From a virus, in IMG/VR virus record IMGVR_UViG_3300049043_000112, positions 1-64,000 of that record: a DNA stretch of 64,000 nucleotides. One strand, 5' to 3'. The notes beneath the pieces were generated by a model. It had not been told where the DNA came from and did not search any database. It saw only the letters and a program-made list of their open reading frames with translations. The translations under genes and the position numbers were made by a program. Positions 9,578 through 40,453 of the stretch are shown here, in pieces. How positions within the stretch are numbered: the stretch's first letter is position 1; every line of letters begins with the position of its first letter.

Positions 9578-9985
9578 TCACCGAAGTGGCATAAGGTCAA
9601 ATAATTCTGGATGAAGTTGTCCGTATTTTCTCATTAATTCACCTGCTTTTGCATTCGCCTGATTTTCTGTCGGACTACCAGCATGAGAACTCTTATGGTC
9701 AAGACCTTTCTCCATGTGTTGTTTGTAGTGAACATACTCATGAGCAAGAGTTCTTAATATATCCATAGGATGACGATTAATAATGCTCAAATGAATTACA
9801 TTTTCTTTTGAAATTTCACCAAATGCAGCAATTCGTTTAGCAAAATCTGTATCATCTACAAGAATGACTGGAATATCATAAGTGAGGCGAAGTTCTCTTT
9901 TTAAAAAGACCTGAAATTTTTTAAGAATCAAATCAAATTGAATCTTTGTAGTTGGTCTTCCTTTTCGCTTTCCAATCAAAGACAT
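9578..9985 (-). CDS. Small zinc-metallopeptidase-like protein (HExxH)
   Basis: A 135-aa protein. Residues 82-86 are HEYVH in the context LRTLAHEYVHYKQHMEKG, a zinc-metallopeptidase motif like that of SprT/ImmA-type proteins. The N-terminus is basic (GKRKGRPTTK). The C-terminal NQANAKAGELMRKYG may provide a further ligand helix. Target and biological role are not known. It sits between a small conserved gene and the tRNA pair and is probably cotranscribed with mazG and gp41 upstream. Whether it is a true protease or a non-catalytic zinc protein cannot be told from the sequence. Confidence 0.75.
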   Translation of the reverse strand: MSLIGKRKGRPTTKIQFDLILKKFQVFLKRELRLTYDIPVILVDDTDFAKRIAAFGEISKENVIHLSIINRHPMDILRTLAHEYVHYKQHMEKGLDHKSSHAGSPTENQANAKAGELMRKYGQLHPELFDLMPLR

Positions 9986-20618: not shown

Positions 20619-21131
20619 TTAGATCCATTCAGGTTTACGTTCTGGCATACGAAGATAATTAGATGCAACCCAAGGTTTGGATGCGATATACATCTTGTAA
20701 GCAGTAAAAGTGTCAATGCTTGTGTCAAGTTTATACTCATCAGGCATTGCACGAGCAAAAGAAGTTACTTCAGTAATTTTTCCTTTAGGGAAAAGATAAT
20801 AAGCACCTAGAAGAGTATTATAGCACGAATGGATTTTTCCATATCGCACAGAATACTCATCACACAAATTCATACCGTGTTTGATTAACCAATAAGCATT
20901 ATGGATACTATCCAATGCCCATTTGGTACAGGGATGATTACGAAACGCTCCTTTTTCCGTCTTGTATGGAGTGTTATCAGACTTATATAAATTGCCATAA
21001 TTGTGACCCCATTTACTAGAGGCAACAATAGAAAGCATCTGACAGCACTCCAACGGCATTTTAACAATATGTTTATCGGGAAGACAAATTGCACTTTCAG
21101 CAGGCCAAGGAGATGTTACGAAGATATTCAT
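20619..21131 (-). CDS. Conserved phage protein, possibly DNA-repair glycosylase-like
   Basis: A 170-aa protein from MNIFVTSPWPAESAICLPDK, start chosen because it overlaps the upstream stop as TGATG. Conserved-looking elements: KHIVKMPLECCQMLS, RNHPCTKWALDSIHNAYWLI, HGMNLCDEYSVRYGKIHSC and a C-terminal MPERKPEWI. Proteins of this pattern occur in many phages and are sometimes annotated as pyrimidine-dimer glycosylase-like; I cannot confirm that from motifs. It lies between gp45 and gp44, so expression with the replication genes is likely. Confidence 0.65.
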   Translation of the reverse strand: MNIFVTSPWPAESAICLPDKHIVKMPLECCQMLSIVASSKWGHNYGNLYKSDNTPYKTEKGAFRNHPCTKWALDSIHNAYWLIKHGMNLCDEYSVRYGKIHSCYNTLLGAYYLFPKGKITEVTSFARAMPDEYKLDTSIDTFTAYKMYIASKPWVASNYLRMPERKPEWI

Positions 21132-21553
21132 CAGAGACAATACTTTTGAATTACATATTTGACCTTATTTGGTTTATCTTCCATCCAATATGCTTCATGT
21201 TCAATTTGAGCAGAAGCACTAGATGTCTTAACAGAATTCCTAATATCTTGATATTTGAATGCTGGAAGAATCATATCTTTTTTAGATATTCCAAATGGTT
21301 TATAACCATTACACAGATGAGCAACGTGAGTAGCTTCGTGATAAACGGTTTCATTAATGTAGTACTTTGCATCAAAACCACTTTGCTTGATGTTTTTGGT
21401 GCAGATTACAAACTTTCGTCCAAAATCTGCATAACCAAAAATATCTTTATTACTTCTACAATAATTAACATTTTCACGAACAGAATATCTTGCCTGATAA
21501 ACTTGGTTAAGAATGTCTTTTGCTTGAGGAGTAAGATAAAGTAAAAATTCCAT
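21131..21553 (-). CDS. HExxH protein (metallopeptidase-like)
   Basis: A 140-aa protein from MEFLLYLTPQAKDIL; start chosen because it overlaps the gp45 stop as TGATG. Residues 72-76 are HEATH in NETVYHEATHVAHLCNG, a zinc-metallopeptidase motif. A later IEHEAYWMED could supply the third ligand. It is the second of three HExxH proteins in the window and is unrelated in sequence to the one at 9578-9985 outside the motif. The target is unknown. Its place directly after the sliding clamp suggests expression with replication genes. Confidence 0.68.
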   Translation of the reverse strand: MEFLLYLTPQAKDILNQVYQARYSVRENVNYCRSNKDIFGYADFGRKFVICTKNIKQSGFDAKYYINETVYHEATHVAHLCNGYKPFGISKKDMILPAFKYQDIRNSVKTSSASAQIEHEAYWMEDKPNKVKYVIQKYCL

Positions 21554-22239
21554 CACCCAAAGGTCGAATCAGGTTCCAGAGCAATATAATACTTCAGGTT
21601 GTACTTGCTGTTCGTGAATTGTGACAGAAGTTTAGAAGACACCACAACATCATAGGCACCAGGAATAATCTTGATGTTTTCTACCTTGAAGTTAAAAGTG
21701 AACTCGGCATCGGTTTCACCAACCACGATGGAGTATTCGTTGGAAGTATCGTTCTTCTTATCACGAACCACCAGTTTAACCACACCTGCTTCGCCAACAG
21801 CAGAAAGGTCGGGAAGTTGATACACTGCTGCTGCCTTAATCAGTTTCTCCAGAGTCACACTATCCAGTTGGAAACACACATCTTCAGAAGGAAGTTGAAT
21901 GTCCTTATCGGGAGGAGAAATAATCACGTTAGGATCGGCAAAGAAATACTTAACACGACGCTTACCTTCCTTGATGCTCAGATAAGATCCTTCAGCAAAA
22001 TCAAGGTCGGGATCCTGATGAAGACTCAGACCATTCAAAAACTGGTTGAGGTCATAAATGGCAAAATCACGGGGGAACTCTTCCGTAATGTCTGCCTCTG
22101 CAAGAATGTTCTTAGCAACGGAAATAGTGCGGAGACGGTTGCCTTGCTTCACAAGAATGGAGTTATTGATACCAGCAAAGTTCTTGAGCAGAGCGAGAGT
22201 ATTATCAGAGAGTTTCATAGATTTGTTTTGGATTTTCAT
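21553..22239 (-). CDS. 45: Sliding clamp gp45
   Basis: Trimeric processivity clamp for gp43 and coactivator of late transcription with gp55. It is 228 aa from MKIQNKSMKLSDNTLALLKN, the same length as T4 gp45. An ATG two codons upstream is possible. Segments such as FAGINNSILVKQGNRLRTIS, FPRDFAIYDLNQFLNGLSL and PGAYDVVVSSKLLSQFTN are typical. The stop overlaps the metallopeptidase-like gene as TGATG. The frame is intact. Confidence 0.95.
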   Translation of the reverse strand: MKIQNKSMKLSDNTLALLKNFAGINNSILVKQGNRLRTISVAKNILAEADITEEFPRDFAIYDLNQFLNGLSLHQDPDLDFAEGSYLSIKEGKRRVKYFFADPNVIISPPDKDIQLPSEDVCFQLDSVTLEKLIKAAAVYQLPDLSAVGEAGVVKLVVRDKKNDTSNEYSIVVGETDAEFTFNFKVENIKIIPGAYDVVVSSKLLSQFTNSKYNLKYYIALEPDSTFG

Positions 22240-22241
22240 AA

Positions 22242-22652
22242 TCAACGAGTAAATTCAGTAAAACCATTATCTTTACGGGAATAGTGCCCGTCGAAGTGGA
22301 GCAGAAGCATAGCATAGTGAATGACTTTGAGAAGGTCACGCTTATTACGTCCATCTTTATCACCATAGCGACTACCATACTTCAGGATGTTTGCCTGACA
22401 GAAATGTGTGGCAAGGTCTTTTGCTGCCATCAGGTCAATCGTTTGCGTATCTTTGTAGTCTTGATTGTGACCACAGTAGTGGCTGCCATAAGTGCTGGTT
22501 ACATAATCCTGGACATCTTTCAGGATTTTATCTTCGTTATATTTCCAAAGGTGGTTGGTTGTTTCACTCATAGTAGGTTTTTTACCAAAAAGAATTTCGT
22601 TTGGTTTGTCAGAAAGAGTAAATTGATACTCAGAATAAGGATACTCGTCCAT
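22242..22652 (-). CDS. DUF3310-like phage protein
   Basis: The core reads LWKYNEDKILKDVQDYVTST, QTIDLMAAKDLATHFCQANI, LKYGSRYGDKDGRNKRDLLK and VIHYAMLLLHF, the DUF3310 pattern often loosely labelled nucleotide kinase. I set the start at ATG 22652 (MDEYPYSEYQFTL). An ATG at 22670 lies in the loop of the terminator hairpin, and an ATG at 22571 (MSETTNHLW) would remove 27 residues. No ATP-binding motif is visible, so the kinase label should not be trusted. It lies just upstream of gp45. Confidence 0.72.
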   Translation of the reverse strand: MDEYPYSEYQFTLSDKPNEILFGKKPTMSETTNHLWKYNEDKILKDVQDYVTSTYGSHYCGHNQDYKDTQTIDLMAAKDLATHFCQANILKYGSRYGDKDGRNKRDLLKVIHYAMLLLHFDGHYSRKDNGFTEFTR

Positions 22653-22692: not shown

Positions 22693-23829
22693 TCAGAAAA
22701 CTTCCTCAGAGGCAAATGCTGCACGGACTTCTTTTTCAGAAGGACCAGCAGGCATCTGGAAGTCAGCATCCACCTTGTCATACAGTTCCAGGAACGATTG
22801 CTTGGTCTCATCATCAAAGCGGTTCACGCACACTTGGATTGCCTTTGCCTTGTCTTGGAAGATGCTGTAGGCACGGATGATGTGAACCAGGCGGCGGGTG
22901 CTGATGATTTCCTCAATACCACCATCGTAGAAGGTTTTGCGGATGATGTCTGCCCAGTCCACAAGACGCTTACAGAAATCGCGGTCTTCCACACCCAGGT
23001 CCAGAGCGATGCCTTCAAGGATCTTCTGTTCGGTAGCAGGAGCAGGATAAGACTGCTCGAAGGTCACAGGAAAACGCTCAAGGAATGCTTCGTTGAGCAC
23101 GTTGGTGCCGATAAAGCGACCGTCATCAGAACCCTTACCTTTGGTGTTGGCGGTGGCGATGATATTGAAACCAGCGGAAGGATTGACCCAACGACCAATC
23201 TTTTTCAGGAACACACCTTTACCTTCCAAAATAGATTGAAGGCACAGAATCTTGTTAGAAGCAAGGTCAATCTCATCCAGCAGCAGAATGGCACCACGCT
23301 CAAGTGCCTCAATCACAGGACCATTATGCCACACAGTTTCACCACTTACCAGGCGGAAACCACCAATCAGGTCATCTTCATCAGTCTCAATGGTAACGTT
23401 CACACGAATCATTTCACGCTTAAGTTGAGCACACGCTTGCTCCACACTGAACGTTTTACCGTTACCCGACAGACCCGTAATGAACGTAGGGTAAAAGAGA
23501 CGGGACTGAATAATTTTTTTAATATCGTTAAAGTTACCAAACTTGACGAAGGTATCATCTTTATCAGGAATAAGATTTTGTTCAACAGCAGGGAGAGCAG
23601 CAGGTGCTTGGTATGCTTGCTCCATCTTACCAACAACAGTAGGAGTCACTTCCAGATTCCAACGACCACGACCAGTCTTGTAACCTTCCAGGCGGCGGGT
23701 TACGGTCTGGTAGTTCAGACCACGAGAAGCACAGAAACCCTTCAGGTCGCCAGTGGTAATTTCGGAACCATACAGTTCTTTAATGGACTCAATCAGTTGG
23801 GCGTCGTTCACAGAAGACTTGCGAGACAT
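22693..23829 (-). CDS. cobS: CobS/MoxR-like AAA+ ATPase
   Basis: A 378-aa AAA+ protein. The first ~65 residues form a helical, possibly DNA-binding-like unit (GDLKGFCASRGLNYQTVTRR). Walker A is GLSGNGKT (119-126), Walker B is ILLLDEID (181-188), and sensor 1 is NIIATANT (222-229). The WHNGPVIEALERGAILL segment is characteristic of the MoxR/CbbQ/CobS group. Cyanophages commonly carry this gene under the name cobS, after the cobaltochelatase subunit, but MoxR ATPases more generally remodel proteins together with a VWA partner. Such a partner is encoded just upstream (24174-26330). Intrinsic terminators flank it. Confidence 0.88.
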   Translation of the reverse strand: MSRKSSVNDAQLIESIKELYGSEITTGDLKGFCASRGLNYQTVTRRLEGYKTGRGRWNLEVTPTVVGKMEQAYQAPAALPAVEQNLIPDKDDTFVKFGNFNDIKKIIQSRLFYPTFITGLSGNGKTFSVEQACAQLKREMIRVNVTIETDEDDLIGGFRLVSGETVWHNGPVIEALERGAILLLDEIDLASNKILCLQSILEGKGVFLKKIGRWVNPSAGFNIIATANTKGKGSDDGRFIGTNVLNEAFLERFPVTFEQSYPAPATEQKILEGIALDLGVEDRDFCKRLVDWADIIRKTFYDGGIEEIISTRRLVHIIRAYSIFQDKAKAIQVCVNRFDDETKQSFLELYDKVDADFQMPAGPSEKEVRAAFASEEVF

Positions 23830-23861
23830 AATCTAGTTAGGTGTGTTTGTTAACTGAAGTT

Positions 23862-23889
23862 ATTATAGCAATAAAAAAGGGGCATCCAA
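23862..23889 (-). promoter_or_regulatory. Putative sigma70-type promoter for the CobS-like gene
   Basis: On the minus strand TTGGAT (23889-23884), a 16-base spacer and TATAAT (23867-23862), 33 bases before the ATG at 23829. The -35 box is weak (TTG only) and overlaps the hairpin of the terminator at 23873-23896. Confidence 0.5.
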
Positions 23890-23896
23890 GTGCCCC
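23873..23896 (-). terminator. Intrinsic terminator
   Basis: On the minus strand GGGGCA (23896-23891), a 6-base loop, TGCCCC (23884-23879), then six T. It follows the small leader-bearing gene at 23928-24143. Confidence 0.85.
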
Positions 23897-23927
23897 ATGT
23901 GACGGTTTAAAAAGTGTACACTAAAAT

Positions 23928-24143
23928 CTATTTTTTCTTTTTAGAAGTTGATGGAGAAACACTTCTCTCAAAGGGTGTACCTTCCTGAACTAATCCGTCA
24001 CCATCACGATCTGTAGCATTTGGATTATATCCAATTGCTTTTGATTCTGATGATGAAGCAGCAACTGGTGATGGTGCAGTAGGAGCAGCAGGAGATGGTG
24101 CTTCCACTATTGATTCTTCAATTAAATCTGAAAATCTACTCAT
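23928..24143 (-). CDS. Small protein with capsid-targeting-like N-terminus and EF-hand-like loop
   Basis: A 71-aa protein. The N-terminus MSRFSDLIEESIVEAPSPAA resembles the MKxFxxFIxE leaders, with a possible I-x-E|S cleavage point at residues 8-11. An Ala/Pro/Ser-rich linker follows, then NATDRDGDGLVQEGTPFER, which contains the DxDxDG calcium-loop pattern, and a basic tail KKKK before TAG. A GATAAATA late promoter 25 bases upstream supports a late, virion-associated role. It lies between the VWA and AAA+ genes but has its own late promoter. The function is unknown. Confidence 0.7.
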   Translation of the reverse strand: MSRFSDLIEESIVEAPSPAAPTAPSPVAASSSESKAIGYNPNATDRDGDGLVQEGTPFERSVSPSTSKKKK

Positions 24144-24167
24144 TAAATCTGATAGAACTCTTTGAAA

Positions 24168-24175
24168 TATTTATC
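24168..24175 (-). promoter_or_regulatory. Putative late promoter (GATAAATA)
   Basis: Minus-strand GATAAATA, 25 bases before the ATG at 24143; it overlaps the stop region of the CobT-like gene. Fits NATAAATA. Confidence 0.6.
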
Positions 24176-26330
24176 AAGCGACAAGTTCTACAAACTCACT
24201 CAAAATTTTCTTATTCATTTTTTTAGACTTAAGACTCTTTACAAAGGCAGACTTGATTTGAGTCTTGGTCGCATCTTCAGCAACTTCAAACTCACTATTC
24301 TGAGCGAGAGCATTTGCCGACAGACCAAAGTAAGCATGGTAACCAGAGTTCTTGATGGCAAAAGACTTTTCCTTCCTCCAAGAACCCATCACTTTTTCGT
24401 GCTCGGGACCATACCATCCACAATAACGACGAATAAAGTTACCAGCATCACGAGATTCAAGAACACGAATACCAATAAAGTTGATATCGGTAAAGTTGTG
24501 CCTCAAATTCTGAAGAAGAATATCAGTAAATTTCCACCAGTCACCATCACAAGAATAAGTATGACCAGTCTTGCGATCACGAATAAAAGCATTTGCCCCA
24601 ATAGTAGAAACTCCAAGATAAGGACCATCTTCCCAATGACGCTTGACTTCACGATGATATTTTACCATACAAGCTTCACCATCAGTCAAAATCACACACT
24701 GAACTTTTTGGAGTTTATTTTCTTTCTGAAACTTAGGAAGAATCTGATGAAGAGAAATCAGTGCCTCATTCAGGGGAGTACCTGAAAGAGAAAGACCCAG
24801 AGGAATAGAATAACGGGAATAGTGGTGGCGATGATTTGCGTAAGCAAGGCGGAAAATATTTTTCATCTGGTCTTCCAGAGTTTTACCATTCACTTTGCTG
24901 GTCAACAGGTTCATCATAGAGAACCACTCACCAACGTGAACCAGACCATCTTTCCTTTCATAAGCAAGTTCACGAAGATTTGCTTTACCATCTTCACTAT
25001 ACTTGACCAAAGGATACTCAGTTGTGAAGGCATAAACCTCAAAAGGAATCGCAACTTTCTTGCAGAACCAAATCAGGTTAAACAGTTGCTTTACGGTATC
25101 AGTCATCACATCACACATTGAACCAGACCAGTCCAACACAAACACTAGACCGTGATTCTTACCATCGGCAAGAGTGGTGACTTTCTTGAACAGGTCTTCG
25201 TTGTACTTGTAAGTATGAAGTTTAGAGCAGTCCAGAACGCCTGTGCGGGCAGTAGAGGCACGAGAATATGAATCTGCTGCCTTGCGGCACTCAAACTCTT
25301 TCACCAGATAGTTAACTTCCTTCTGAGCAGAACGCTTGAACTCTACGAACTGACGATCAACTTCACCAAAGATATCAAGATATGAATAGTCAAGTTTTTC
25401 AAGATAATCATCCCAAGATTCTTTACAACGAGCATGAATCTCTTGATTAGGAACAATCACTTTATTCAAATCAAGTTTAGGAAGTTCCAGGTAAACGTTC
25501 TCATAGACATCATTACCTACAAGGTTTTTCAGTGCCTCTTCAAGAGACTCCATCGTTTTCACTTCAGGATCTCCATTCTTCTCACCACCTTCGTTACTAG
25601 GTTGTTGCTGCTGCTGTTGCCGCTGAGAAGTTTCGGAGGAAGAAGCACCATCAGAACCTTCGGACTCAGGTTGGTCGTTCTCACCTTCCTGTTGGTCACT
25701 GAAATCAGAAGCGGGTTGCTGATTAGCACCGCTCTGTTGCGATTCAAGATTATCCAGAGAAATCTTGGTTTCCTCTTCTTGCTTGTGCTTACAATACTTG
25801 TAGAGTGCCTCTGCGGCAATCAGAACATCAGCAAAGGTTTCGGTCTCTGCAATCTGATTGATAATATCCGTCTCCTCACCACGTTCAATAAGAATATCAG
25901 TATAATTACCAATTTTGAACCACAGGTTTGCACGGTCTGCAAGATTATAAGTTTCCAGATTATCGTCTTTGATTTGGAAGAAATCATCATCAGCAAGTTC
26001 CTTGTATCCGTTGAAGAAGGTCTTCGCCAGACCAGGATAACGACGCTTCATCAGTTTCTCAATACGAGCATCCTCAACCACATTCACAAATTGCGGAGGA
26101 ATCTTATATTCTTTCAACCAGTCTTCATCAGGTGTATAGAGAGCATGACCCACCTCGTGACCCACCAGAAGGTCATAGACGGTGTTGCTTGCCTTCTCCC
26201 ACATCGGCAGGGTCAGCACACGAGTATGAACGTTGAAGCAGGCAGTCTCCACTTTCTTGTGCTCAACCACAAGGTCTTCGGTAGCAAGGAGCTTGGCGAG
26301 TTGAGATTTGATTTCGTGAGAAACAGGCAT
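24174..26330 (-). CDS. cobT: CobT-like VWA protein with HExxH motif
   Basis: A 718-aa protein from MPVSHEIKSQLAKLLATEDL. Residues 58-62 are HEVGH in LLVGHEVGHALYTPDED, followed by VVEDARIE (86-91), the third-ligand pattern of CobT-like peptidase-type domains. Residues ~196-256 are a Gln/Ser/Glu-rich acidic linker. A von Willebrand A domain follows with MIDAS motif FVLDWSGSM (DWSGSM, 400-405), then SGTPLNEALISLHQI and LTDGEACM. It would pair with the CobS-like AAA+ ATPase at 22693-23829. In bacteria CobS/CobT insert cobalt into a corrin, but other MoxR-VWA pairs remodel proteins. The actual substrate is unknown. The frame is intact. Confidence 0.87.
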   Translation of the reverse strand: MPVSHEIKSQLAKLLATEDLVVEHKKVETACFNVHTRVLTLPMWEKASNTVYDLLVGHEVGHALYTPDEDWLKEYKIPPQFVNVVEDARIEKLMKRRYPGLAKTFFNGYKELADDDFFQIKDDNLETYNLADRANLWFKIGNYTDILIERGEETDIINQIAETETFADVLIAAEALYKYCKHKQEEETKISLDNLESQQSGANQQPASDFSDQQEGENDQPESEGSDGASSSETSQRQQQQQQPSNEGGEKNGDPEVKTMESLEEALKNLVGNDVYENVYLELPKLDLNKVIVPNQEIHARCKESWDDYLEKLDYSYLDIFGEVDRQFVEFKRSAQKEVNYLVKEFECRKAADSYSRASTARTGVLDCSKLHTYKYNEDLFKKVTTLADGKNHGLVFVLDWSGSMCDVMTDTVKQLFNLIWFCKKVAIPFEVYAFTTEYPLVKYSEDGKANLRELAYERKDGLVHVGEWFSMMNLLTSKVNGKTLEDQMKNIFRLAYANHRHHYSRYSIPLGLSLSGTPLNEALISLHQILPKFQKENKLQKVQCVILTDGEACMVKYHREVKRHWEDGPYLGVSTIGANAFIRDRKTGHTYSCDGDWWKFTDILLQNLRHNFTDINFIGIRVLESRDAGNFIRRYCGWYGPEHEKVMGSWRKEKSFAIKNSGYHAYFGLSANALAQNSEFEVAEDATKTQIKSAFVKSLKSKKMNKKILSEFVELVA

Positions 26331-26351: not shown

Positions 26352-26357
26352 ATTATA
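26352..26357 (-). promoter_or_regulatory. Possible -10 box upstream of the CobT-like gene
   Basis: Minus-strand TATAAT immediately after a terminator T-tract, 22 bases before the ATG at 26330. A TTGACC in the terminator loop (26371-26376) could be a -35, but the spacer is only 13 bases, too short unless bases are missing in the homopolymer. Confidence 0.4.
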
Positions 26358-26358
26358 C

Positions 26359-26383
26359 AAAAAAGAGGGTGGTCAAACCCTCT
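26359..26383 (-). terminator. Intrinsic terminator
   Basis: On the minus strand AGAGGGT (26383-26377), loop TTGACC, ACCCTCT (26370-26364), then a T run. It closes the transcript of the small genes at 26408-26825. Confidence 0.87.
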
Positions 26384-26407
26384 TGTGTGCCAGTTTAGAA
26401 AGTGGTC

Positions 26408-26626
26408 TCAACCTTCAATAATACTCTGCTTCCACTCTTCACTCATATTTGCCATAATAGCAAGAGCTGCCTTGTTGGTGTCTGCGTAACCTTCGGAAAC
26501 TAAGTATTCTAGCAGATAATCAAAGAGATCAGTTTCTTCACGAAGTCTTGGATTTTTTAAAGCATCATTAATCTCACCCATTTTTCCTCTGGGAGACCCC
26601 TTACCACCATCACCATCATCTTTCAT
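26408..26626 (-). CDS. Small conserved phage protein
   Basis: A 72-aa protein. The N-terminus is Gly/Asp-rich (MKDDGDGGKGSPRGKMG). The C-terminal 45 residues are the recognisable part: EETDLFDYLLEYLVSEGYAD and TNKAALAIMANMSEEWKQSI, a helical element seen at the C-terminus of several cyanophage small proteins. It overlaps the upstream small gene by 11 bases. The two may be one protein broken by a frame error, or two overlapping genes; the sequence does not decide. Function unknown. Confidence 0.6.
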   Translation of the reverse strand: MKDDGDGGKGSPRGKMGEINDALKNPRLREETDLFDYLLEYLVSEGYADTNKAALAIMANMSEEWKQSIIEG

Positions 26627-26825
26627 AGCTTGTGTTTCTTAATTTATCTGCTCTCTTCATCATTGCTTCCCTCTTTTTTCCAGCAGGAAGTTTTTTAAAT
26701 CCTTTCCCTACAGGACCGTATGGAAGTCCTGCCTCATCAAGTGCTTCTACTTCTTCTATTTCTTCTGTTTTTACATAAACAGAAGCATAAGCCTCCATCA
26801 AATCCTTAATTTGTTTTGCTTCCAT
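26616..26825 (-). CDS. Small late protein
   Basis: A 69-aa protein, MEAKQIKDLMEAYASVYVK, an acidic middle (TEEIEEVEALDEAG) and a basic end (KKREAMMKRADKLRNTSYER). A TATAAATA late promoter lies 21 bases upstream, just after a hairpin. It is probably a virion-associated or head-related small protein. It may be the N-terminal half of a longer protein that includes the gene at 26408-26626 (see that entry). No domain is recognised. Confidence 0.6.
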   Translation of the reverse strand: MEAKQIKDLMEAYASVYVKTEEIEEVEALDEAGLPYGPVGKGFKKLPAGKKREAMMKRADKLRNTSYER

Positions 26826-26840
26826 TTTTATAAAGACTTT

Positions 26841-26987
26841 TTAAATATTTATAAATGAAGAAGCGTCCCCGTGTTGGAGACGCTTCTTGAGTGCTTGGCG
26901 ACGTGCCTTTGCTTGTCGGAGTGCTTGCGGTTTTAGTTTCCGCTTCTGATCCTTCTTAGAGTGGTGATAGCGGTTGGGGACTTGCAT
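26841..26987 (-). CDS. Small very basic protein (48 aa)
   Basis: ATG 26987 opens MQVPNRYHHSKKDQKRKLKP and continues with QALRQAKARRQALKKRLQHG, ending at TAA 26841-26843. It is strongly basic and helical, so nucleic-acid binding is plausible. Its start overlaps the gp46 stop as TGATG. The last codons run through a hairpin (GAAGCGTCTCC / GGGGACGCTTC) that resembles a terminator and then the late promoter at 26846-26853, so the C-terminal residues may differ from those predicted. Function unknown. Confidence 0.58.
   Translation of the reverse strand: MQVPNRYHHSKKDQKRKLKPQALRQAKARRQALKKRLQHGDASSFINI
26846..26853 (-). promoter_or_regulatory. Late promoter (TATAAATA)
   Basis: Exact minus-strand TATAAATA 21 bases before the ATG at 26825, and just after a GC-rich hairpin at about 26857-26883. 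Confidence 0.72.
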
Positions 26988-28714
26988 CATTCTTGTGTCG
27001 ATGAAGACACTCTACGGGAAAAACCTTTGACTTTTTCGAATTGTATGACACTTTCAAATCTGTCACGCATATCGGTCTTATGAGAAATCACAAAGATATT
27101 AGCATCTTTAATCACATAACGGATAATCTTCAGGAACTCATCAGTTCCGAATCCATCAAGCGATGAATCAAAGACCTCATCCATAATCAGCAGATTAGTA
27201 TTTACGGAGTTTTTGACTCGGGCAACTTCTCTCCAAGTGAAGAGAAGGGCAAGATCGATTCTCATTTTCTCACCCTCACTAAAAGAACTATAAGAAAAGT
27301 CTTCGTGAATGGGTGATTTTACCGTTTCGTTAAACTCTTCATCCAGATGGAAATTAATATAAAAATCCATCATCTGAAGATAACGATTCACCTGCTGATT
27401 TATGAACGGAAGATACTTCTTGATTATCTTCGTTTTAACGCCATCGTCCTTGAGTAAGGAATAGGCAAAATCGTAATAAACGATTTCTTCTTTTTCTTTG
27501 AAAGGTCTTCGAATGTTTTTTGGAGATTGGTTTGAAATTCTTCTAACTTCTCATGCTCAAGTATTTCTGTTTGCAAGGTTTTGGGTAATAGTTTGAACTT
27601 CATTTTCAAGATCTCGGATTTGTCGCTGGTTAAGTGATATCCGAGTATTGTTTTGAGAAATCTCATGGTTGAGTTTCGTAATCTCCTTAGATAGAACTGT
27701 GAATTGACGCTCTCTCTCCTGTTCTAACTTTATAGTCTCCTTAAGTTCTTGAAAACCTTTCTGGAGTTCCTTTGCCTTATTTTGAGCGTCTGCAATTCTA
27801 TTTAACCGAAACTCTTCTTCTATAGTCTGAGTACAGGTGGGGCAGACCGTATTTTCTGTGAAGAACTTATGTTCTTTGGTAATAGCAGATACTTTCTGAG
27901 ATATTTTACCCTTAAGATTGTTAAGCTTTACTAACTTATCACCAGCACCTATGACTTCTTCTTGATCTTTGGTGTATTTAAAAACTTCCTCTTCTATCTT
28001 GGCATTTTCGGTCATATAAACACCAACTTCGGTATCTAAATTGGCAATCTTTTCTTTGTTGGCATTTATATTGGCGTTACCACGATTCTCAAGTTCCTCA
28101 ATGAATTCTTGTTGCATCTTCATCTTGTCCTTAAGAGTTTCCTTCTTAAGTTCAAGAGATTTTACTTGGTCTTTCTTTTCACGAATCTTATCTTTAATAA
28201 GATTATTCATTGCAGAAAAAATACGAATATCCAAAAGGTCTTCAATTACTTCTCGACGATTAGAAGTAGTCAATTGCATAAAAGGTACAAAAGTACTACT
28301 CCCTAAAATTACAATCTGAGTGAAAGATTTGTAATTTACCTTTAAAATATTATCTTCAAGAATTCTTTGATTGGCACGGTCATCTGCTTCCTTGTGTAAA
28401 GGAACACCATTTACTTCAATATCAAAAACATTTGGTTTGATACCACGACGAACCAAATAATCACGACTATTAATTGAAAACTGAATTTCTACAAGACAAT
28501 CTTTCTCATTAGTCGTATTAACTAACTGAGGTTTGTTAATCTTTCGAAATGGTTTATTGAAGAGAACAAAAGTTAAGGCATCCAGTACTGTGGATTTACC
28601 AGCACCATTGGTTCCTATGATTAAGTTTGTATGATGTTTTTCAAAATCAACTTCGGTCCACTGATTTCCAGTTGAAAGAAAATTTTTCCATTTAATCTTG
28701 TGAAATACTAACAT
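26987..28714 (-). CDS. 46: Recombination endonuclease subunit gp46, SbcC/Rad50-like (two frame breaks)
   Basis: ATPase of the gp46/gp47 end-processing nuclease that feeds recombination and replication. N-terminal Walker A is GTNGAGKST (34-42). Long coiled coils flank the zinc hook CPTC (291-294). The C-terminal lobe has FSEGEKMRIDLALLFTWREV (ABC signature) and LLIMDEVFDSSLDG (Walker B), ending VISHKTDM. The frame breaks near 27575 and near 27497; both are A/T-rich. Corrected length is about 575 codons (T4: 560). The 5' end overlaps the DUF3110 gene by 23 bases. Confidence 0.93.
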
Positions 28715-38756: not shown

Positions 38757-40453
38757 TTATATCTTACCACCTTTGGGTTCCTGTGGAATTTCTGTAGGTG
38801 CGGGTGCTGCTGGTTCTGCTGGAACTTCACCTAATGCTGGTTGTTCTCCTACTGCTCCTTCTGGTGGAACTCCTTCTGGTGGAATTGGATTTCCCATTTC
38901 ATCAACGGGAGCATTAGGATCTGGAAGAATACCTTTTTCAATTTCATCATCAATCTGTTGATCAATTTCAATAATTTCAGAATCTGTTTGGCGAAGAATT
39001 TTTTTACGAACATACTCTGTAGAATAATATTTTCCAATATAAGGTTCAACTTGTGTCATCAATGAAATACGGTTTGTTAAAATTTCTGCTTCCTTTAGTT
39101 CTGCAAAATGATTATCATATAAGAAGTCATATTGAATATGATCCTCCATCCTTTCCCAATCTTCTGGAGAAACAATATTCTTCAAAAGAAGTTGAGTACG
39201 GAGCATATCATTAAACATATTCGAAAAACGCTTTCTAAGTCTCCCTACAAACTTAGAAAACTTAAGTTCATCTCTTAAAATTTCAGATGAACGTCCAAGA
39301 TTAAACCCATCTCCTCCACCAGCAATTCTTGTTTCTGGAACTCCAAGTGCTCTATAAAGTTTCTTTTGAAAATATTCAATATCTGCAAGTTCACCAAGGT
39401 TTTGACCACCAGGTAAGGTTGTAATCTCGGTTCCTCTACCACCTCTCTTCTTGGAAGCCAAAAATCTTCCAGCATCGCCATATATTTGCGATCATCACGA
39501 ATTTCTCCAGTATTTGCATCATAAACAAGTTTATTACGATAACGACTCATCACTTCTTTAAGATATTGCTCTGCTTTTACTTTAGGAAGATTGCCAACAT
39601 CGATATAGAAAATTCTTCTTTCTGGAGCACGTGATAATCTGTAGATAACCAGAGAATCTTCAATCATTCTTAACTGGTTAAGTGCTTTAATCGCTTTATG
39701 AAGATATGAAAGTACAGTTCCTTTATTTCTATCTACAAGTCCAGAAGTGCAATAAGTAATTGAATCTTTTGCAATTTTAAGTGATCCTTTTGCTGCTCCA
39801 CTCAAAGAACCCATGGGATAATTTGGTGCTGGAGAATAAATGAAATATTCTTCAACATCAGAATAACTCATTTCTGAGTTAGTAAGATTTGCATTTGCGG
39901 TTAAAGTACTTACGATTGGTTGTCCATTTTTGCCGTTCGTCTTTACCTCTTGACGAACATGCTTCATTTTCATTGGATCAATGTATCTGATTTCTTTTAT
40001 ACCTTCTTGTGGTTTTTTAGTATCAATAACTTTCAAGTAATATAATCTACCATCAACATACCAATTCCTAAAAATTTCATGACACTTTCTATCAAAGTCC
40101 ATCATCTCTTTGATGGACTTAAATTCATCACGAATTGCTTTTTTGAGTTTATCGCTAGCATTTAAATTTGATAATTCAATTTCAACTGGAGAATCATAAA
40201 GATCACTTACAAGGGCTTCGTTTACAACATCTTCAATCGCAGCATCACACTCCGGATGTAATGCCATTTCACGATAACGACGCATTAAATCAAACTCAGT
40301 TCTATAGACACCTTCAATATCTACATACTGACCGTAGAATCCAGATTGAATATAATAATCAACCCCGTCCTCATCTGTCTGAGGAACGGGGGATACTATA
40401 GATTTGGATTTTTCCTCTGTATCTTCAATCGAAAAACCAAAAAGTTTCGCCAT
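38757..40453 (-). CDS. 20: Portal protein gp20 (one frame break)
   Basis: Dodecameric portal through which DNA enters the head. Key segments: FYGQYVDIEGVYRTEFDLMR, HPECDAAIEDVVNEALV, WYVDGRLYYLKVIDTKKPQE, RLSRAPERRIFYIDVGNLPK and MAMLEDFWLP, after which the frame breaks near 39453. It then continues RGGRGTEITTLPGGQNLGEL and GVPETRIAGGGDGFNLGRSS, and ends in a Pro-rich tail. Corrected length is about 565 codons (T4: 524). It is widely used as a cyanophage marker gene. Confidence 0.95.

Follow-up and report, generated by a model that had tools for sequence, protein, structure and literature searches.

The DNA analysed here, referred to as the window, comprises the first 64 kb (64,000 nucleotides) of a 236,016-base virus record, IMGVR_UViG_3300049043_000112, from a T4-like cyanophage (Kyanoviridae), whose nearest named relative is Synechococcus phage S-SRM01 (Serangoonvirus). 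Two neighbouring genes, located on the minus strand like all features of the pair and of its flanks given below, are the subject of this report. The upstream one (24174..26330) encodes, from an ATG start, a VWA-metallopeptidase-like protein of 718 amino acids, matching phrog_459, "peptidase", over its full length (E 3.1e-273); the downstream one (22693..23829) encodes a CobS/MoxR-class AAA+ ATPase of 378 amino acids, which is a full-length match to phrog_249, "porphyrin biosynthesis" (E 5.2e-137). Relatives of the VWA protein are annotated either as CobT or as peptidase. Such a pair is present in almost all large cyanobacterial viruses of oceans and freshwater, where it usually passes for the enzyme inserting cobalt into vitamin B12. 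This vitamin label is probably wrong, since the two proteins look like an ATP-driven remodelling motor with an intact zinc-protease site in the partner of the ATPase.

Three parts are recognized in the VWA protein. The N-terminal domain (25764..26330), zincin-like according to AlphaFold2 (AF2) models and Foldseek, is composed of three short strands, a helix with HExxH, a helix with the pattern N..ED.R.E, and a helical tail. The first helix carries HEVGH (26145..26159), the predicted zinc ligands and general base; the second carries VVEDARIE (26058..26081), whose E and D are candidates for the third zinc ligand. A disordered linker rich in Q, S and E follows (core at 25563..25724), with predicted local distance difference test (pLDDT) values below 50 and a conservation of 0.48, the lowest in the protein. 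The C-terminal VWA domain holds a complete metal ion-dependent adhesion site (MIDAS), formed by DWSGSM (25116..25133), the Thr of SGTPL (24771..24785) and the Asp of LTDGE (24675..24689). An earlier note, made from the letters alone, had pointed to HEVGH, VVEDARIE and DWSGSM, and to full Walker motifs in the AAA+ protein: all of them are found. It had also described an acidic linker; the linker is there, but it is richer in Q/S/N/G, which account for 38 of the 64 residues (about residues 192-253), than in acidic residues (14 D/E, with 2 K/R). Here and below, residue numbers taken from models and alignments exceed by one those of the ATG-started protein, because these inputs included the TTG codon just before the ATG.

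Conservation was evaluated on 175 distinct homologues from 223 loci, with identities to the window protein down to 27%. The H, E and H of HExxH are present in all 172 homologues covering the site (three more are gapped there); the four defined residues of N..ED.R occur in 173 out of 173, and the MIDAS residues, namely the D, S and S of motif 1, the T of motif 2 and the D of motif 3, in 175 out of 175. Even in two outliers, from Pelagibacter phage HTVC008M (33% identity) and from Ochrobactrum phage OC (25%), HExxH, N..ED.R and MIDAS are all retained. Such invariance at this level of identity, next to a variable linker, indicates that both sites are under strong selection. HExxH occurs in only 3 of the 71 ATG-started open reading frames (ORFs) of at least 100 amino acids on the coding strand; this rarity, together with the conservation in 172 out of 172, rules out a chance motif.

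Relatives of the VWA protein were found in 463 phage records: nearly all are cyanophages, with a few marine viruses and Pelagibacter phages. A plasmid search with the VWA protein found none. Eleven loci from bacterial genomes, mostly phage-looking contigs from metagenome-assembled genomes or single cells, were not counted as cellular homologues. In the assembly of a flavobacterial isolate, Nonlabens xiamenensis, the gene lies on a 188-kb contig, which may be explained by a phage of the host or by contamination; this genome has no CobN match.

The fold predicted for the N-terminal domain (AF2, pLDDT 83; 77 for the full-length protein) features strands at residues 22-26, 32-34 and 39-43 and helices at 50-66 and 80-98. 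HEVGH falls within the former helix, while N84, E87, D88, R90 and E92 are placed on the latter; in the model, the small beta-sheet and the two-helix core make up a zincin layout. When the domain is compared by Foldseek to the PDB, the top eight matches are all zincins: ArdC (6sna, 6i89) and selecase (4qhi, 4qhj, 4qhg, 4qhf) occupy ranks 1-7 and PprI (8slm) rank 8, with probabilities of 0.94-0.99 for the top four. Against a library of viral structures, the first matches of the domain are CobT/VWFA proteins of phages, those of haloarchaeal tailed viruses among them, and the next are SprT, PolyVal and IrrE metallopeptidases. Among PDB entries, the full-length model is matched best by NorD from the NorQD complex (E 1e-4); the midasin MIDAS domain is found at rank 9. 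Pfam and NCBIfam scans of the protein gave no relevant match, and neither phmmer nor a profile of 33 relatives retrieved anything useful from PDB sequences: the links to NorD and to zincins were found by fold comparison alone.

The AAA+ protein matches AAA_5 (E 2e-16) and, above the cut-off, CbbQ_C, the CbbQ/NorQ C-terminal domain. Walker A (GLSGNGKT, 23452..23475) and Walker B (ILLLDEID, 23266..23289) are accompanied by a sensor-1 (ATANT), an arginine-finger-like LERFP and a sensor-2 (STRRL); an N-terminal extension (23653..23811) corresponds to a region, residues 1-60, with no Pfam match. Its relatives of solved structure are midasin, CobS, NorQ and CbbQ. With AAA_5, CbbQ_C and the Walker motifs in one protein, and a VWA domain with a complete MIDAS encoded next door, the two genes have the sequence features of a MoxR AAA+/VWA pair. 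A related CobS-like AAA+ protein is present in 1882 plasmid records, over half of them predicted to be conjugative (e.g. from Vibrio furnissii and Halorubrum); of the plasmid genes inspected, one lies beside a YqaJ recombinase and DUF3150, and another, haloarchaeal, adjoins a vWA protein lacking HExxH.

The pair is embedded in a cluster of replication and recombination genes, in the order gp47-gp46-VWA-AAA-gp45-gp44. In all of the 225 loci containing both genes, these are on the same strand, VWA first, with a median gap of 357 nt, and wherever the flanks are covered, the pair is located between gp46 and gp45. Among loci that extend more than about 1.9 kb downstream, none has the VWA gene without the AAA+ gene. 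In the window, the downstream flank is gp45, the sliding clamp (21553..22245; phrog_223, E 1.4e-87), and the upstream one is gp46, a recombination endonuclease subunit (26987..28714; phrog_77), interrupted here, while S-SRM01 has a single coding sequence. The pair had been placed at a boundary between replication and late genes: its location is in fact inside the replication cluster, where short ORFs with late-type motifs flank it.

Each gene of the pair is preceded by a TATAAT -10-like element, located 27 nt before the VWA ATG (26352..26357) and 38 nt before the AAA+ ATG (23862..23867); just upstream of each putative promoter is a terminator-like hairpin (26363..26384 and 23879..23896, respectively). 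Matches to at least five of the six TATAAT positions are found in 143 of 147 distinct upstream regions for VWA (35 when shuffled) and in 122 of 123 for AAA+ (44 when shuffled). The late motif ATAAATA is present in 0 of the 147 and in 3 of the 123. TATAAT-type promoters are also found at gp46 and gp47, while gp44 has no TATAAT-like elements and gp45 few perfect ones, so that the clamp genes may be transcribed from the AAA+ promoter as well. Late motifs in the window precede the tail sheath, head scaffold and tail-fibre assembly genes; since the window-wide number of ATAAATA is at chance level (23 versus 23.7 expected), statements on late promoters rely on this position before structural genes and on the comparison of upstream regions. 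The promoter motifs argue for early or middle expression of the pair, and against a dedicated role in virion assembly.

Three short ORFs, all on the minus strand, surround the pair: 23928-24143, 26408-26626 and 26616-26825. ATAAATA is found 27-31 nt upstream of the first and the third, and the first encodes an EF-hand-like DRDGDGLVQEG. They look like late genes inserted among early/middle ones. The second had been labelled a head-leader gene, which was not confirmed: it belongs to phrog_3708, of unknown function.

The relation to cellular CobT was analyzed by alignment to real CobS/CobT from six plasmid-borne loci. HExxH is absent from all six authentic CobT proteins, whose N-terminal domain is otherwise aligned to that of the phage protein. 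At the site, cellular CobT features RG..D followed by S/A-x-A-L-R or similar (e.g. RGxxD-SMALR), where the phage family has RGxxD-HExxH; DAVEQARVE of CobT takes the position of the phage N..ED...E, and the E of EDARIE aligns. Other phage proteins named CobT keep HExxH: those of Roseobacter phage CRP-810, T5S1, Rhizobium phage RHph_N1_15, Escherichia phage PhiR41_1, Microcystis phage Mae-Yong1326-1 and Vibrio phage ICP2. The CobT-like proteins of Stenotrophomonas phage ANB28 and Pseudomonas phage ZY21 are degenerate intermediates. The direct profile match between the window family and cellular CobT is weak (probability 5%), and homology is therefore based on intermediate phage families, which link the two with 99.8% and 100%. 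The CRP-810 protein forms a bridge: it retains HEAGH and is also recognized by the Pfam family for the N-terminal part of CobT (E 2e-15). HExxH, which the earlier note considered an extra motif, is thus not an addition, but the state that CobT, aligned and devoid of the site, appears to have lost, a direction of change that is inferred.

Taken together, the data are best read as follows, with a probability of roughly two in three: the pair is a MoxR/CobS-class AAA+ ring with a VWA adaptor bearing an intact zincin domain, acting early or in the middle of infection and probably directed at a host protein or at one involved in replication or transcription. This reading draws directly on the presence of both domains, the invariant motifs, the predicted zincin- and NorD-like folds, linkage and gene order, the lack of late promoter motifs and of a phage CobN; that the two proteins bind each other, that the site holds zinc and cuts peptide bonds, and what sort of protein is targeted are inferences. 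In NorQD structures, a finger of the VWA protein enters the AAA+ pore, the linker joining the VWA to the N-terminal domain is stretched by ATP-driven twisting, and MIDAS is proposed to bind acidic residues of the target (PMC13036017). By analogy, a hexameric AAA+ protein would grip and twist the VWA domain, with MIDAS anchoring the target at one of the target's acidic residues; the flexible linker may then swing the zinc-peptidase domain onto the held, remodelled target, which would be cut or exposed. The putative promoters, of the TATAAT type and early/middle in character, lie among replication and recombination genes, which makes a host or replication/transcription protein a more likely target than a late virion protein.

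Several points weigh against this reading. The E-values of the N-terminal domain in the PDB comparison are marginal (0.07-0.8), though no competing fold emerged, and the zincin assignment is accordingly based on the consistency of the matched family together with the motif. DUF2201_N, described as a putative metallopeptidase, matches only 1 of the 33 relatives, and weakly (E 0.003). Both E87 and D88 are invariant, and either may be the third zinc ligand. Any zinc in the domain could also be structural, or the domain might serve as an adaptor without activity. Finally, the expression class is deduced from promoter motifs alone, and an early gene can still act late.

A different function, proposed in a survey of archaeal viruses, is that cyanophage CobT, "mistakenly annotated as a peptidase", hijacks the CobN of the host (PMC8651126): the phage pair would dock on host CobN, which in cyanobacteria is normally driven by ChlI/ChlD, and boost B12 or pseudo-B12 production, HExxH being incidental. 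Synechococcus and Prochlorococcus assemblies do carry CobN-family proteins, the four marine cyanobacterial genomes tested have no CobT_N, and the remaining CobT-like phage families can be aligned to cellular CobT from end to end. Yet an incidental HExxH fits poorly with its invariance in the phage family and its absence from real CobT. Neither CobT Pfam family (PF06213, PF11775) matches the window VWA protein, while authentic CobT scores 325 and 373 bits; the AAA+ protein obtains 66.5 bits with the CobS model TIGR01650, and six pair-bearing phages 61-94, versus an equivalog cut-off of 558.55. CobN (PF02514) is missing from all 13 pair-bearing phage records scanned (the complete 236-kb record of the window and 12 others), and CobT_N (PF06213) from the record; the earlier note saw no other cobalamin gene in the window, and for these two families, the ones scanned, this holds. 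Host range also speaks against a chelatase. HTVC008M carries the pair, and SAR11, which this phage infects, is a B12 auxotroph according to PMC9296465. A related pair, with HEVAH, is encoded by PhiR41_1, an Escherichia phage listed with E. coli MG1655 as its host, though the E. coli control genome gives no CobN-family match. In addition, the small subunit of class I, B12-independent ribonucleotide reductase (RNR) is encoded by 10 of the 13 phages, including all eight of the window family, which weakens the usual B12 rationale. Hijacking of the chelatase is therefore distinctly improbable. For the window family the evidence favours the peptidase annotation, and it explains the resemblance to CobT; the idea of a MoxR-VWA remodelling pair with a protease-like module, rather than a chelatase, put forward in the earlier note, is supported by conservation, fold, neighbourhood and host range.

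Two further explanations keep the remodelling motor and change its task. The motor might remodel structural proteins while heads or tails are being assembled, with the peptidase trimming them, a role suggested for sister jumbo phages of group 2.2; an archaeal-virus MoxR-VWA pair is needed for tail assembly, as cited in the same paper (PMC7824862). The small late-type ORFs flanking both genes would suit this role. The pair itself, however, is located in the replication cluster, has no late promoter motifs and features TATAAT-type promoters like gp46/gp47. T4-type phages, moreover, already have a prohead protease, gp21, for head maturation. In the text of a paper on one cyanophage virion proteome (30 proteins), neither a peptidase nor CobS is named (PMC9146016). 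An assembly or maturation machine is, on balance, unlikely. It is also conceivable, but quite unlikely, that the pair is a non-proteolytic metal insertase or chaperone, inserting a metal cofactor as NorQD does, for instance into the class I RNR small subunit, with the HExxH domain carrying or delivering the metal. Structurally, NorD is the nearest match, and the system it belongs to inserts iron (PMC13036017); NrdB is encoded in all eight records of the window family tested. Three small phages with related pairs nevertheless lack NrdB, and HExxH has an invariant catalytic Glu, a residue for which a metal carrier would have no use. T4 has NrdB but is not known to carry the pair.

Other features of the record deserve mention. 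Two more HExxH proteins are encoded in the window: a phrog_16003 protein of 141 amino acids (HEATH; 21131-21556, minus strand), overlapping the clamp gene gp45 and with relatives in 5 phage records only, including S-SRM01 and phage P60, and a phrog_87 "metallo-protease" (HEYVH; 9578-9985, minus strand), with a late-type motif just upstream. The nrdA-like gene (504-2712), gp46 and the portal gene (38757-40453) are each split across overlapping or adjacent frames, probably by indel errors of the assembly rather than for biological reasons. The class I RNR small subunit gene, containing one in-frame TAG, is cut by the record ends (4-282 and 235387-236001), which suggests a circular record opened inside nrdB.

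Of wider scope, and tentative, is the proposal that cyanophage and pelagiphage "cobS/cobT" in general may be an ATP-driven targeted protease, remodelling and cutting host or replisome proteins in early/middle infection, and that CobT may have descended from, or share an ancestor with, such a partner, losing the zinc site on recruitment to the chelatase. Among myo-cyanophages, cobS belongs to the core genes (PMC3037559), and marine ecologists employ it both as a B12 "auxiliary metabolic gene" and as a community marker (PMC9983427, PMC3037559); whether the host function is retained is unknown, according to one of these papers (PMC9983427). Should the pair prove to be an AAA+/VWA metallopeptidase, claims about B12 that were built on it would have to be retracted, and a conserved machine for takeover or assembly, shared by very abundant viruses, would become open to testing. 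The comparison also provides a residue-level account of the CobT N-terminal domain versus the peptidase fold, and puts two opposed readings found in the literature on testable terms.

Among known systems, selecase, a minigluzincin, and ArdC, an antirestriction zincin, provide the best PDB folds for the N-terminal domain (10-12% identity), but are stand-alone proteins, with no VWA or AAA+ partner. DUF2201 proteins (PF13203/PF09967) share HExxH, an N...D in the next segment and a VWA-like C-terminus, whereas the ED.R.E pattern is missing from the DUF2201 example; the window protein is not matched, and DUF2201_N (PF13203) finds nothing above the gathering cut-off in the record. CobS/CobT resemble the pair in the AAA+ protein, CobS being the nearest stand-alone one of solved structure, in the VWA domain with MIDAS and in the disordered linker; they differ in that CobT has no HExxH (0 out of 6), while the window VWA protein lacks PF06213 and PF11775. 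NorQ/NorD, the best fold match for the whole protein, also combine an AAA+ partner with an N-terminal domain, linker and VWA, but their target is nitric oxide reductase, and the NorD papers considered, PMC13036017 among them, mention neither HExxH nor a metalloprotease. In the jumbo-phage pair of group 2.2, published in 2021 (PMC7824862), a MoxR AAA+ protein is described beside a vWA protein fused to an N-terminal metallopeptidase, the same architecture as here; a virion assembly role was proposed for it, while the promoters in the window suggest early/middle rather than late expression. In that survey, cyanophages and phage OC form group 2.1. Lastly, the window genes are direct members of the phrog_459/phrog_249 pair of T4-like cyanophages, from which they do not differ in sequence: only the functional reading does. 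Neither the gene pair nor the general idea of a MoxR-VWA system with a peptidase is thus new; what is added here is the application of that idea to cyanophages, a series of intermediates leading to cellular CobT, and the evidence from promoters.

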